Shown piece after piece: positions 30,752-57,961 of a stretch of DNA of 57,961 nt. A model generated the notes under the pieces. That model saw only the letters and a list, made by a program, of their open reading frames with translations. It had not been told where the DNA came from and did not search any database. Location: assembly GCA_018812485.1 (NCBI GenBank), contig JAHJDO010000062.1, positions 1 to 57,961 on the forward strand. The letters are read 5' to 3'. A program made the position numbers and the translations under genes. Position 1 is the stretch's first letter. Every line of letters starts with the position of its first letter. This stretch comes from a bacterium (GTDB lineage Bacteria > JAHJDO01).

Positions 30752-30816
30752 GGTTATCTCGTATGAAACATACATGCCAACAAGTGGGCACAAAAGAGAA
30801 TAAAAATCTTTCTGTC

Positions 30817-30839
30817 ATTCCACGACTTGTTCGAGGAAT
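30817..30839. repeat. REP-like hairpin
   Basis: ATTCC-A-CGA ... TCG-A-GGAAT forms an imperfect stem in the intergenic space after the ketoreductase, in a TCATTCC...GGAATCCAG context common for dispersed bacterial palindromes. It lacks a T-run. Confidence 0.45.
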
Positions 30840-30937
30840 CCAGCATTTTGTTTATTTTTATTGAAGTTTTAAGTATAGTACTTCTAAAGTAACAGCAAAC
30901 GTTCAGTGGTTGATGTTGGCCAGAAAGGAGAAAACTG

Positions 30938-32107
30938 ATGAAATTGTACCCTTGCACCAAGACGTTCTCTGCAACCATTATGTTATTGTTGCTCTGGGTC
31001 GTTGTTGTCTTTGGTGACGAAAGGATTCTGATCGATACGAAAGTAAACGACAAGCCTGTTTGCTTTGTCTTTGATACCGGCACCGAGTATTCAATCTTGT
31101 TCCGTGAGGCGGCTCAGCGCCTTGGACTTCGGGTGACTGATCCTCCTGAACACCTAGTCGTAGAGGCTGGCAAGGTAAAGATGGGGTTTTCGGAAGAATG
31201 TCGATTATCCCTCCTCGGCAGTACAGCAAATAAAATGAGATTTCGCATTTTCGACCAACCATCATATCTTCCCTTTAAGGTGGACGGATTCATAGCTTGG
31301 GCGAATCTGAAGAACAATATTTTTCATATCGATGCGGAGGAGAAGGAACTCACGGTGTTGGATGCTCTTTCAGAAGATATAGGACTGTGGACCAAATGGA
31401 CTATTCGGCAGGATTCACGTTTGCTGGCGTTCCGATTGTCTGAAGGAGGGACAATCTTTATTGATACCGGTTCGCCCTACGGAGTTCGTCTTAGTCCGAA
31501 AAGGTGGATAGACTGGCGCCGCAAACATCCAAAGCAACCATCTACATTGACTGTATATTACGTGCCTGCGGACGGGCTCGTTATACATGAGGAATGTTGG
31601 GCTCAAGAACTTAGCGTCGGAGAGTTCTCAATTTGTAATATACCCGTCGCACAGTCTGCGCCATATGAAAGCCTCTTATTCAAAGACTATGAGGCTACGC
31701 TTGGCTTATTTGCTCTAACCCGTCTGGATATCATTATTGATGGCAAAAAAGGTAGAATTTACACAAGGCCGAACCCGAAATCGGCATCGCAATACCAATA
31801 CAATAGATTCGGTGCTGTCTTCGTGCCGAAGGATATGAAGAGCAATGACTTGATTGCGCACGTCATAGATGGTAGTCCTGCACACGATGCAGGTATTCGG
31901 AATGATGACATTTTACTGAGCATAGACGACTTGGATGCTACGAAGTGGCGCACAGACCCAAGCGTATTACCGCTATCCCGTTTTTGGGGACGACCGGCAG
32001 GAACTAAACTGAAATTGATACTCAAACGAGACAAGAGAGCTTTTACGAGGGTTGTTCAACTCAAAGAGATTTTTGGCGAACAATCGTCAATTCTTCGTGC
32101 CCCATGA
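30938..32107 (+). CDS. secreted retropepsin-like aspartic protease with C-terminal PDZ
   Basis: 389 residues. A hydrophobic signal segment (ATIMLLLLWVVVVFG) precedes two pepsin-type lobes: the active Asp46 in CFVFDTGTEYS and Asp176 in FIDTGSPYG. Having two DTG motifs in one chain suggests an intramolecular dimer. Residues about 300-385 form a PDZ domain (GSPAHDAGIRNDDILLSIDD). The gene has a higher G+C content than its neighbours. It is followed by an attC-like sequence and preceded by GTTCAGT at 30901, so it may be a gene cassette. It interrupts the lipid cluster. Confidence 0.72.
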   Translation: MKLYPCTKTFSATIMLLLLWVVVVFGDERILIDTKVNDKPVCFVFDTGTEYSILFREAAQRLGLRVTDPPEHLVVEAGKVKMGFSEECRLSLLGSTANKMRFRIFDQPSYLPFKVDGFIAWANLKNNIFHIDAEEKELTVLDALSEDIGLWTKWTIRQDSRLLAFRLSEGGTIFIDTGSPYGVRLSPKRWIDWRRKHPKQPSTLTVYYVPADGLVIHEECWAQELSVGEFSICNIPVAQSAPYESLLFKDYEATLGLFALTRLDIIIDGKKGRIYTRPNPKSASQYQYNRFGAVFVPKDMKSNDLIAHVIDGSPAHDAGIRNDDILLSIDDLDATKWRTDPSVLPLSRFWGRPAGTKLKLILKRDKRAFTRVVQLKEIFGEQSSILRAP

Positions 32108-32117
32108 GAATTCGACT

Positions 32118-32174
32118 GGCCAACAAGACACTGGATCGGACGCGTAAACGCGCCGCTCATTTCGGACGTTATAA
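32118..32174 (+). mobile_element. attC-like site 1 (weak)
   Basis: 57 nt from GGCCAAC to GTTATAA. The core CGG-A-CGCG-TAAA-CGCG-CCG is a hairpin with one extrahelical A, as in integron attC sites, flanked by AACAAG and GGACGTTA. The outer R boxes fit the consensus poorly. It lies right after the aspartic protease gene. Confidence 0.4.
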
Positions 32175-32277
32175 AAAAACAATTAAAATTTATGAATAGA
32201 TTTTGTTGCAATTGCTTATATCATAGAGACAAAGAGCCATATAAAAATAAATATTGAAATATGTATGGTAGTATGGT

Positions 32278-32565
32278 ATGGATAGAGTACATTTTGAATG
32301 GAATTCTGATAAAGATAAAATAAATCAGAAGAAACACGATGTTTCATTTGCAATAGCTCAATATGCGTTTTTAGATCCGAAACGTATAATTGCAAAAGAT
32401 TTAAAACATAGCGGTAGCGAAGAGCGTTATTTTTGTATCGGTAAGGTGGATGATGAGATTATAACTGTTCGCTTTACTTATAGAGGTAATATTATAAGAA
32501 TAATAGGTGCAGGATATTGGAGAAAGGGTAAGGTGGTATATGAAAAAAAGAATAAAATACACTAA
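32278..32565 (+). CDS. brnT: BrnT-type toxin
   Basis: 95 residues. Family pattern: FEWNSDKDKINQKKHDVSF at the N-terminus, LDPKRI in the middle and GKVDDEIITVRFTYRGNIIRII toward the C-terminus. BrnT is a small ribonuclease related to RelE. The gene overlaps the antitoxin gene by 26 bases. Confidence 0.88.
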   Translation: MDRVHFEWNSDKDKINQKKHDVSFAIAQYAFLDPKRIIAKDLKHSGSEERYFCIGKVDDEIITVRFTYRGNIIRIIGAGYWRKGKVVYEKKNKIH

Positions 32566-32767
32566 TGAACCAATAAGTCTTAAGGCTGTTGACGATTTTC
32601 TTCCTTCCCCTGAAGAACTTGTTTTAAGGGAAGAAAATGTCAAAATAACTATTGCTTTAAGCAAGGCGAGCGTAGAATTCTTCAAGAAACATGCGAAAAA
32701 AACTCATAATCATTATCAAACAATGATCAAAAGAATTCTTGATTATTATGTTGCGCATTATCAATAA
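32540..32767 (+). CDS. brnA: BrnA-type antitoxin
   Basis: 75 residues with a ribbon-helix-helix C-terminus (VKITIALSKASVEFFKKHA, then NHYQTMIKRILDYYVAHY). It neutralises BrnT and normally autorepresses the operon. The start ATG at 32540 lies inside brnT. The pair sits between the aspartic protease and the CrtI-like gene. Confidence 0.85.
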   Translation: MKKRIKYTNEPISLKAVDDFLPSPEELVLREENVKITIALSKASVEFFKKHAKKTHNHYQTMIKRILDYYVAHYQ

Positions 32768-32774
32768 AACCCAC

Positions 32775-32794
32775 GGGTCAGGCATGCCTGACCC
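32775..32794. repeat. perfect 20-bp palindrome
   Basis: GGGTCAGGCA is followed by its exact reverse complement with no spacer, between brnA and the CrtI-like gene. There is no T-run, so it is not a standard terminator. It could be a REP-type element or an operator for the cluster. Confidence 0.7.
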
Positions 32795-32821
32795 CTACAG
32801 CAATGACAAGAGAGTATTTAG

Positions 32822-35568: not shown

Positions 35569-36549
35569 ATGAGCGTTAGGGATTTGTCTAAAGGACAGGT
35601 TATAGTATATGAGAATAAGGTTGAAGTCAGGCTGGAAAAAGAAACTGTCTGGCTTGCACAAAAGCAGATGGCTATCCTTTTTGAAAAAGGAATTCCAACG
35701 ATAAACGAACATATTAAAAATATTTACAAAGAGAAAGAACTGGATAAAAATTCAACTATTCGGAAATTCCGAATAGTTCAAACCGAAGGTGGAAGACAAG
35801 TAGAAAGGGATATAGAGTTTTATAATTTAGATGTTATTATCTCTATTGGTTATCGTGTAAAATCCCATTGCGGCACCCAATTTCGTATCTGGGCAACAAA
35901 TGTGCTTAAGCAGCATTTGGTTAACGGATATACGATCAATGAGAAACGGTTAAAGTCTGCCCGGCATAAGTATCAGGAATTACAGAAATCATTAAAACTT
36001 TTAGGCAACGTTATTCAGATTGAAGCAGTTTCCGGTGAGACAAAAGGACTTATTCAGGTGATAACCGAATACTCACATGCGCTTGATATTCTGGATGATT
36101 TTGATCACGAGCGGCTTTCTGTGCCAAAAGGAACAAAACAGTCAAAATTTAAGCTTACCTATGAAGAAGCTAGAAAAATAATTGAGGCTATGAAGCGAAA
36201 ATTTAAGCATTCAGCATTTGTTGGACAGGAAAAAGACGAAAGTTTCAAAAGTTCAATAGGGACGATTTACCAAACATTTGGCGGCGTAGACCTTTATCCA
36301 ACCGTTGAGGATAAAGCAGCTCATTTATTATATTTTGTTACTAAGAACCACAGTTTTGTGGACGGAAATAAACGCATTGCAGCAGCGCTTTTTATTTGCT
36401 TCTTGCAAGGCAATGGGCTTTTAGTCCGTAAAGATGGAGATAAACGGATTGATGATAATACACTTGTAGCCTTAACACTTATGATTGCAGCCAGTAAAGC
36501 ATCTGAAAAGGAGACAATGATTAAGGTAATATTAAATCTATTAATATAG
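35569..36549 (+). CDS. RhuM-type DNA-binding domain fused to a Fic/Doc domain
   Basis: 326 residues. Residues about 1-120 match the RhuM virulence-protein pattern (VRLEKETVWLAQKQMAILF, YNLDVIISIGYRVKS, FRIWATNVLKQHL). Residues about 210-326 are a Fic domain with the full motif HSFVDGNKR beginning at His261, so AMP- or phosphate-transfer activity is possible. It fits exactly between the KS and ACP genes with 12-base gaps on each side. This family is normally part of mobile or defence modules. Confidence 0.85.
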   Translation: MSVRDLSKGQVIVYENKVEVRLEKETVWLAQKQMAILFEKGIPTINEHIKNIYKEKELDKNSTIRKFRIVQTEGGRQVERDIEFYNLDVIISIGYRVKSHCGTQFRIWATNVLKQHLVNGYTINEKRLKSARHKYQELQKSLKLLGNVIQIEAVSGETKGLIQVITEYSHALDILDDFDHERLSVPKGTKQSKFKLTYEEARKIIEAMKRKFKHSAFVGQEKDESFKSSIGTIYQTFGGVDLYPTVEDKAAHLLYFVTKNHSFVDGNKRIAAALFICFLQGNGLLVRKDGDKRIDDNTLVALTLMIAASKASEKETMIKVILNLLI

Positions 36550-40661: not shown

Positions 40662-40720
40662 GCAGTGAGCCGGAATGGAATCCGCTTTTACTGGTATTAT
40701 TTTGCTAAATCAGTAAAGGT

Positions 40721-40747
40721 TTGCTATATTTTAGATAGTTTTATAAT
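40721..40747 (+). promoter_or_regulatory. possible promoter of the small membrane-protein gene
   Basis: TATAAT at 40742-40747 is perfect; TTGCTA at 40721-40726 gives a short 15-base spacer. It would allow the cassette-like gene to be expressed independently. Confidence 0.35.
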
Positions 40748-40801
40748 GAGGAATCGAGAAAATATGGATTCCATATATTAATTGTTAGGAGAAAATAAAA
40801 T

Positions 40802-41086
40802 ATGTCAATAGACCCGAAAGTATTGTTTCCAATATTAGAAAATACTGGTGAATCACAAGTAAGAATAAAACTTGCACAAGGAGTATACGGAGAAGAGAAA
40901 ATTCCTATTGTTTATGAATGGCTCCGCATAAAAGATGAAGAACGAATTAATCTTTCTTCTTCTCGCAATAAAGCAGCAGCTTTAGAACAACTCCGTATAG
41001 CAAGTAGTGCAAAAAATGCAGCATGGATTGCTGCTATCGCTGCAATTATTGCTGCGGCAACTACTATATTTGTTGTTGTGAAATAA
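40802..41086 (+). CDS. small tail-anchored membrane protein, cassette-like
   Basis: 94 residues. A soluble N-terminal half (GVYGEEKIPIVYEWLRIKDE) is followed by an Ala-rich helix and one C-terminal membrane segment (AAWIAAIAAIIAAATTIFVV). AGGAG precedes the ATG by 9 bases. No family recognised. The attC-like site begins 13 bases after the stop, so gene plus site have the anatomy of an integron gene cassette, inserted between cutA and the lolA-like gene. Confidence 0.6.
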   Translation: MSIDPKVLFPILENTGESQVRIKLAQGVYGEEKIPIVYEWLRIKDEERINLSSSRNKAAALEQLRIASSAKNAAWIAAIAAIIAAATTIFVVVK

Positions 41087-41099
41087 TACAAAATAAGAC

Positions 41100-41158
41100 T
41101 CCTAACAACGCGCTGCACTTGACCCGCAATAGCGGGCAAGTGAGCTTTAACGTTCAGC
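41100..41158 (+). mobile_element. attC-like site 2
   Basis: 59 nt from TCCTAAC to GTTCAGC. The central hairpin CACTTG-A-CCCGC / GCGGG-CAAGTG has an AATA loop and a single extrahelical A, the hallmark that sets the recombinogenic strand. Flanks AACAACGCGCTG and AGCTTTAACGTT match the wording of environmental attC sites. The R boxes are degenerate but the overall form is convincing. Confidence 0.7.
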
Positions 41159-41206
41159 CAAATATGATCAACAAAAACATCCCGTGTAAAATATACAAAA
41201 TCCTAG

Positions 41207-41212
41207 TATAAT
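41207..41212 (+). promoter_or_regulatory. possible -10 box of the export genes
   Basis: TATAAT at 41207-41212 lies about 37 bases before the lolA-like start, downstream of the attC-like site. The -35 region (GTGTAA) is poor. If used, the second half of the cluster has its own promoter. Confidence 0.35.
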
Positions 41213-41248
41213 TACAAATCAGGTTTTGAAATTATGTTTGGAGCAACT

Positions 41249-57187: not shown

Positions 57188-57246
57188 GCTGAACGTCAAA
57201 GGTCACCGGTGCCCGTCAGGACGTCCGGTGCACTGCCTTGTTCGCA
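57188..57246 (-). mobile_element. attC-like site 3
   Basis: On the minus strand 59 nt run from TGCGAAC to GTTCAGC, the same length and the same right box as attC-like site 2. The interior reads AACAAGGCAGTGCACCGG, then a loop region with CGTC-CT-GACG, then CACCGGTGACCTTTGACGTT. The outer stem is CACCGG/CCGGTG. The wording TGCACCGG...CCGGTGA.CTTT.ACGTT is typical of environmental attC sites. It lies downstream of the GH43 fragment on the same strand. Confidence 0.65.
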
Positions 57247-57268
57247 GTTCCCTGAATCTCGCCCACGC

Positions 57269-57291
57269 TCTCACAACGAAGAAGTGTGAGA
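57269..57291. repeat. 7-bp stem hairpin
   Basis: TCTCACA and TGTGAGA are separated by 9 bases between attC-like site 3 and the GH43 fragment. There is no T-run. It could act as a weak transcription-end structure. Confidence 0.4.
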
Positions 57292-57316
57292 ATGCGGGTT
57301 AGTGCAGTGCCTTGAC

Positions 57317-57838
57317 TCACGCTTGGCCCTTCAGTAAGTCCAGATCGTCACGCATCGAACCGTTCGGGCTGTACGTCACCGGGGCGATGAAGCAGTCCCG
57401 AATCCGGTCGCGGCTGAGGTCGCGGTATTTACACCAAACATGATACCACTCACCCTTCCATGTGAAGAAATCGCCGTGGGCATAGCCTGTTTCAAGTTGC
57501 CAACCCGTGCCGACGAGACCCTGGTGCTCATAGGGGCCGTAGAGTTCCCGTGACGTAGCGTAATACCCGGAGCAGCTCAGATAGTAGATGCCGTTGCGTT
57601 TATGCAGTGAGTTCTTATCGGTGTTGGGGAACACGCCTTTGCGATCCAGCGAGATTACCCGTGGCTCTTCGTCAAGTTCGACCATCGAGTCTTTAAGGCG
57701 CGCGATCCGATAGTCGTGCATGCCGTAAATAATGTAGGGCGTACCGTCATTCTCTATGTACACGGTCGGATCGAATGAGTCGACGAGCGGGCGCCCAAGG
57801 GCATCGACATAGGGCCCCTCTGGGGCATACGTGTTAAG
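57317..57838 (-). pseudogene. 5'-truncated GH43-type glycosidase fragment
   Basis: On the minus strand coding similarity runs from GPYVDALGRPLVDSFDPTVY to the TGA at 57317-57319. The stretch SFDPTVYIENDGTPYIIYGM is a GH43 beta-propeller motif. The first blades, including the expected first catalytic Asp, are missing because the frame is closed by TAA at 57839-57841. An internal GTG at 57763 could start a 148-residue product but not a working enzyme. The G+C content is much higher than the surroundings. Confidence 0.65.
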
Positions 57839-57961
57839 TTAAGCGATGCATTTTCTGATTATGGGTTTCTCAATTTCGAGTATTGGATCACATTGAGTTT
57901 CCATGATTTCGAGAGTGGTCAGGCGTGATCGCTGTCGGTTTTTGAGACAAGCGGGAATGAT
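57839..57961 (-). CDS. C-terminal end of a gene running off the window
   Basis: On the minus strand an open frame enters from the window edge and ends with TAA at 57839-57841 after 40 codons. It reads CLKNRQRSRLTTLEIM and then an acidic/basic tail ending RKCIA. The style and position, abutting a broken GH43 gene, suggest a transposase C-terminus, but no family is recognised. Confidence 0.3.
   Translation of the reverse strand: MIPACLKNRQRSRLTTLEIMETQCDPILEIEKPIIRKCIA

Follow-up and report, generated by a model that had tools for sequence, protein, structure and literature searches.

Integrons are usually pictured as one platform, in which the integrase gene intI lies beside one attI site and the cassette array is read from one promoter. 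In such a classical array only the first cassettes are well expressed. As far as the accessible text of the published reports goes, the arrangements described are one attI beside intI, CALINs, and attG insertions at many loci (PMC9024848, PMC12444791, PMC12901181, PMC9668308), and the literature searched, which omits most subscription papers, gave no match for a multi-attI or dispersed-attI arrangement. IntegronFinder 2.0 by default omits isolated single attCs (PMC9024848), and a dispersed architecture could easily be overlooked because standard finders would see in it only such single attCs.

Here we describe gene cassettes in a stretch of 57,961 nucleotides, which is referred to at its full length as the window, and the putative sites that receive them (Table 1). 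They share with the integrons organised as intI-attI-Pc-array (class 1, and the chromosomal ones of Vibrio and Xanthomonas) a canonical attC, crossover at G^TT and sense-orientated cassettes, and a candidate promoter likewise precedes the putative recipient site. Here, however, the recipient sites are numerous and unlinked and mostly hold one cassette each, and no intI was found in the five genomes of the genus. As in CALINs and isolated single attCs (IntegronFinder 2.0, PMC9024848), cassettes with an attC occur without a neighbouring integrase; unlike in those, a conserved promoter-attI-like element stands before each cassette, and slots are common to species while their cassettes differ. The CALINs of Xanthomonas likewise lie at conserved chromosomal positions, with cassettes away from intI, whereas each of them comprises two or more clustered attCs and an intI is retained in many of the genomes concerned; the accessible text of that report describes no shared attI-promoter element (PMC12444791). 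Two or more clustered attCs without intI, by which CALINs are recognised, are not the general pattern here. We consider it probable that the cassettes belong to a distributed integron, in which many promoter-attI-like slots hold mostly one cassette each and the integrase acts in trans or was recently lost.

Table 1. Cassettes, attC sites and recipient elements in the window.
Feature	Positions	Strand	Basis or remark
Type A dispersed element, promoter and attI-like end (...GGATTCCATATATTAATT)	40675-40783	+	BLAST/pattern copies; identity drops at the boundary
Candidate Pc, sigma70-like promoter TTGCTA-17-TATATT (extended -10)	40702-40730	+	Conserved across element copies
5' core site GTTAGGAG	40784-40791	+	Crossover G40784/T40785; perfect complement of the attC R'' box
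Integrated gene cassette, 368 bp	40785-41152	+	Core-site boundaries; other cassettes at the orthologous G003 locus
Cassette ORF, 94 aa	40802-41086	+	C-terminus hydrophobic by eye; no match in a Pfam search
attC of the 94-aa cassette	41099-41159	+	Crossover between G41152 and T41153
Right flank of slot, leads to lolA	41153-41233	+	Occurs in G003 after each of its two cassettes
Type B attI-like end AACAGCAAACGTTCAGTGGTTGAT	30891-30914	+	Left of second cassette
Second cassette	30916-32168	+	Core GTTGGCCA at 30915; core and R'' complementary (GTTGGCCA/TGGCCAAC)
Second-cassette ORF, 389 aa, aspartyl protease-like plus PDZ	30938-32107	+	Pfam
Second-cassette attC	32117-32174	+	31.8 bits, E 1.4e-5 in window (match at 32118-32174)
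Third-cassette attC (R'' TGCGAAC)	57188-57246	-	20.7 bits, E 0.008 in window (match at 57188-57245)
Third cassette, runs off contig	57194-57961	-	Remaining 5' half on G000:C106

The earlier note had pointed to a 59-nt attC-like hairpin with one extrahelical A. The hairpin indeed lies at that place and is a real attC, but its extrahelical bases are two (G and A) and not A alone, and their spacing matches that in the aadA1 and aadB attCs. Read 5' to 3', the site consists of R'' CTCCTAAC (41099-41106), an AACGC spacer, L'' GCT[G]CACTTG[A], a CCCGC arm and an AATA loop, followed in the 3' half by a GCGGG arm, L' CAAGTG-AGC, a TTTAAC spacer and G^TTCAGCC, with the G at 41152. The R''/R' and L''/L' pairing and the extrahelical bases required of the attC of a gene cassette are all present. 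We scored the site with a covariance model (R1) of 9 reference plasmid attCs from class 1 integron cassettes, the variable loops of which were trimmed because they misaligned in the full-length references. The score was 26.7 bits (E 2.5e-4 in the window, E 0.012 in the whole genome), and R1 matched 8 attCs on 6 contigs of the genome, 3 of them inside the window; a low covariance score and a lack of similar sites elsewhere, which had been named beforehand as what would speak against an attC, were thus not what we obtained. Folding of the circular-form attC (R' restored as GTTAGGAG) as single-stranded DNA gave z of about -6 to -6.7 for either strand, and in the single-stranded fold of the attC an R stem of 8 bp is followed by an unpaired spacer, by the L stem carrying the two extrahelical bases and by a terminal hairpin. 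A GC-rich stem downstream of an ORF might also be a chance hairpin, or the intrinsic terminator of an ordinary gene. Against this stand the covariance score, the core complementarity and the replacement of cassettes described below, no terminator-like match was obtained at the attC, and comparison of the orthologous sites refuted it. An Rfam scan of the window returned tRNAs and 6S RNA only. A small gene cassette ends in the 59-base hairpin, which is a true site of integron recombination.

That the gene and the attC together form a gene cassette, as had been proposed, was borne out at both ends of the 94-aa unit. Over all of its 10 nt, the 5' end TTGTTAGGAG (40782-40791) matches the reverse complement of CTCCTAACAA (41099-41108), a complementarity that is expected if both ends were once joined in a circular cassette, and one sense-orientated ORF fills the 368 bp, as is usual for gene cassettes. 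Relatives of the 94-aa protein were not found in plasmids and viral contigs. It is not, however, the single cassette that it had been taken for, as the window holds 3 in all. The 5' half of the third, with a type B site (see below), the core GTTCGCA and a GH43-like gene, lies on contig C106 of the same genome (G000). The attCs are mostly single and at separate loci, with two in a row on G000:C96 and two in separate slots on G003:C31, and some of them lack a site of either type described below. The cassettes in most cases carry one ORF or few, sense orientated and of unrelated families. Outside the genus, 33 of 40 genomes were without an attC match at E<=0.05 with the covariance model, and in G035, an attC-bearing genome, no common sequence was seen upstream of its 7 attCs on 7 contigs.

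The DNA left of the crossover recurs at 5 places in the genome, 4 of which end exactly in GGATTCCATATATTAATT/GTT(A/G)G (the slash marks the end of the element) and 1 with three mismatches. This type A family ends GGATTCCATATATTAATT/GTT after a sigma70-like promoter. Its full copies (L062, L065) are about 150 bp long, have inverted repeats ATATGGAATCC / GGATTCCATAT, and contain TTGACTAAATC(A/G)ATAAAAATTTGATATATT, a sigma70-like promoter directed at the cassette. Searching 5' of the other attCs revealed a second family, type B, which ends TGTTCAATGATTAAT/GTT and several copies of which carry TTGACACATATAAAATTATTCGCTATCTT. TTGACT/TTGACA and -10-like hexamers are conserved in many element copies; the number of promoter-like sites in the window stretch, 4 as compared to 3.1 in shuffles, is not above that of the shuffles. 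Each of the four congeners had type A copies and three of them also type B copies, with essentially none in 54 other genera, among which type A gave a single 23-nt match. Matches to the type A end pattern in GTDB genomes and IMG/VR, beyond those in two congener MAGs, were set aside as chance, since their flanks were without the promoter element.

In the five congeneric genomes we mapped 29 sites (18 type A, 11 type B); 15 had a fully cognate attC, 5 a near match and 9 no recognisable cognate attC. In the 20 bp that precede G^TT, pairwise comparison of the copies gave a mean identity of 0.84 for type A and 0.74 for type B, and right after GTT it was 0.36 and 0.32, respectively, which for type A is close to background. 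Core and R'' agreed at 7 of 7 positions in 15 of 20 site-attC pairs, with a mean of 1.2 and never more than 8 upon random re-pairing, a figure that is supportive only because the pairs were partly chosen by that agreement. The type A and type B ends look like putative attI-like recipient sites, conserved up to G^TT.

These data bear on the proposal of the earlier note that the cassette had entered a secondary site. The cassette was inserted where a repeated attI-like element with a promoter terminates, and copies of this element stand at several loci of the genome and in all four congeners. The insertion point looks like one of many dedicated slots of the attI type. Entry of single cassettes at non-specific secondary (attG-type) sites through an integrase from elsewhere would fit the mostly single attCs, the lack of a linked intI and the attCs without a type A or B site, and attG insertion is a known activity of IntI (cited in the accessible text of PMC12901181 and PMC12444791). 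We regard it as quite unlikely here. An attG recipient has no homology to a dedicated site, whereas the left flank here belongs to a repeat family found at many cassette loci, with homologous promoter-bearing copies ending exactly at the crossover; the same slot is used repeatedly across species; and attG insertions in E. coli are reported over many loci in the accessible part of PMC12444791. The attG insertions of Loot et al. 2024, as described in papers that cite this work, likewise place cassettes outside a classical array, but at diverse genomic sites and not in a family of homologous promoter-bearing repeats. The single-insertion view accounts for the cassette, not for the shared left element.

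Comparison with a sister species supported dedicated slots. The cutA-lolA locus of G003 has the same site and right flank with different cassettes, i.e. a 166-aa gene and a DUF3800 gene in place of the 94-aa gene, the left element being 96% and the right flank 93% identical between the two genomes. Each of the two G003 cassettes is closed by its own attC with a cognate core site, and the second has its own partial element, a tandem duplication of the site. Similarly, the slot split between G000:C106 and the right end of the window holds the GH43-like cassette here and a hybrid-cluster-protein (Prismane) cassette in G003:C32, and the xerD-linked slot carries different cassettes in G000 and G003. 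Not every slot is conserved between species: G003 lacks the type B site, second cassette and BrnT/BrnA pair (30769-32821), and the genes on either side are directly adjacent there. That BrnT/BrnA-like toxin-antitoxin pair (32278-32767) lies directly downstream of the attC of the second cassette.

The flanks of slots with differing cassettes are 93-97% identical between species, and different cassettes with intact cognate ends in such flanks require recent recombination; we infer recombination at the slots from this outcome. The main rival to a distributed integron is a relic, i.e. an ancestral integron that was broken up and duplicated by rearrangement and whose cassettes are no longer mobile. 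It would explain why no intI was found in five genomes, the degenerate site copies and truncated attCs, and the tandem duplication of the site in G003, but the differing cassettes with intact ends in near-identical flanks argue against it and leave it unlikely. The cassette loci of the own assembly also cluster at contig ends, as variable loci would: 7 of 13 lie there, one locus being included twice, whereas the probability expected by chance is 0.07 for each. Such an excess is what assembly breaks at variable cassettes would give, and repeats could give it too.

No match to TIGR02249 (integron integrase) over the cut-off was obtained in the five congeneric genomes, all of which are incomplete MAGs (62-96% completeness), so that the earlier remark that no integrase was visible holds for the whole own genome as assembled. 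The same search gave 505.6 bits for plasmid IntI1 as a positive control. In the Pfam search, the only PF00589 proteins of G003 were XerD, XerC and, at the end of a contig, a fragment of 63 aa. Candidates in other contigs were rejected as integron integrases: those on C44 and C139 are XerD and XerC, respectively, over the NCBIfam cut-offs, and that on C121 (about 290 aa) is below the integron-integrase cut-off. Multi-copy tyrosine recombinases of ~210-235 aa with a catalytic domain only, often at contig ends, are present in G000, G002 and G004 (L101, L103, L105, L179, L180); these were also rejected as the integrase of the slots, no full copy being present in G003. Modules driven by XerC/XerD, of the pdif kind, would agree with the short list of PF00589 proteins in G003 and with the site that adjoins xerD in G003 and G000, but what closes the modules is a canonical attC that folds with extrahelical bases, inspection of the cassette flanks by eye showed no dif-like pair, and XerC and XerD are ordinary by NCBIfam. 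We consider this reading very improbable. The integrase may be encoded on DNA that the MAGs lack, it may have been lost recently, or its role may be taken by another recombinase.

In the distributed integron that we favour, recipient sites would be numerous and unlinked in the genome. Each would consist of an attI-like end ...TTAAT(T)/GTT, of one of two sequence families, preceded by a promoter of the sigma70 type, and would usually hold one cassette whose gene is orientated for reading from that promoter. A tyrosine recombinase of the integron type, whose gene lies elsewhere or was lost recently, would join the folded attC of a circular donor cassette to the double-stranded attI-like site at G^TT and would also excise the cassette, so that the gene in each slot could be swapped; the identity and presence of this recombinase, its present-day activity and expression from the promoter we infer. 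Against a distributed integron count the lack of an intI match in the five genomes, the number of promoter-like sites not above shuffles, the 9 of 29 sites without a recognisable cognate attC, the attCs without a type A or B site and the use of MAGs only. We think it doubtful, and put it forward tentatively, that a genome-wide promoter-attI network with mobile or duplicating sites is the normal integron architecture of the genus, with a trans recombinase that is not a recognisable IntI and is possibly XerC/XerD.

With many promoter-attI slots of usually one cassette, each gene that is captured would occupy the first position; these genes lie between ordinary ones, also within the biosynthetic cluster of the window. 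If an unlinked integrase serves the slots, the recipient site has become separated from the integrase, and how attI sites multiply is a new question. The presence of different cassettes in the same slot of close relatives makes the architecture directly testable; the emptied cutA-lolA slot would read ATTAATTG-TTCAGCC.

Some further features were observed in the window and around slots and elements elsewhere. A RhuM-Fic fusion gene (35569-36549) lies within the biosynthetic cluster of the window and is missing at that place in G003. In G004:C14 (L070) a fragment like the beginning of lolA lies between the attC and the intact lolA. At four loci (L072, L083, L082, L073) the promoter part of type A occurs without the attI-like end, upstream of ordinary genes, which include an apparent transketolase gene in two species. 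Two cassette-bearing contigs, G000:C75 (L061) and G000:C44 (L145), have identical last 129 bp, like an assembly fork, and this possibly reflects strain variation at one slot. Near-direct repeats of the ATTATAGAATATAT type (L063 4790-4830 and 6170-6200; L074) flank a site plus cassette on G000:C119, where G004:C114 has a single copy of this repeat; the repeats are a possible trace of the way in which site and cassette came in.
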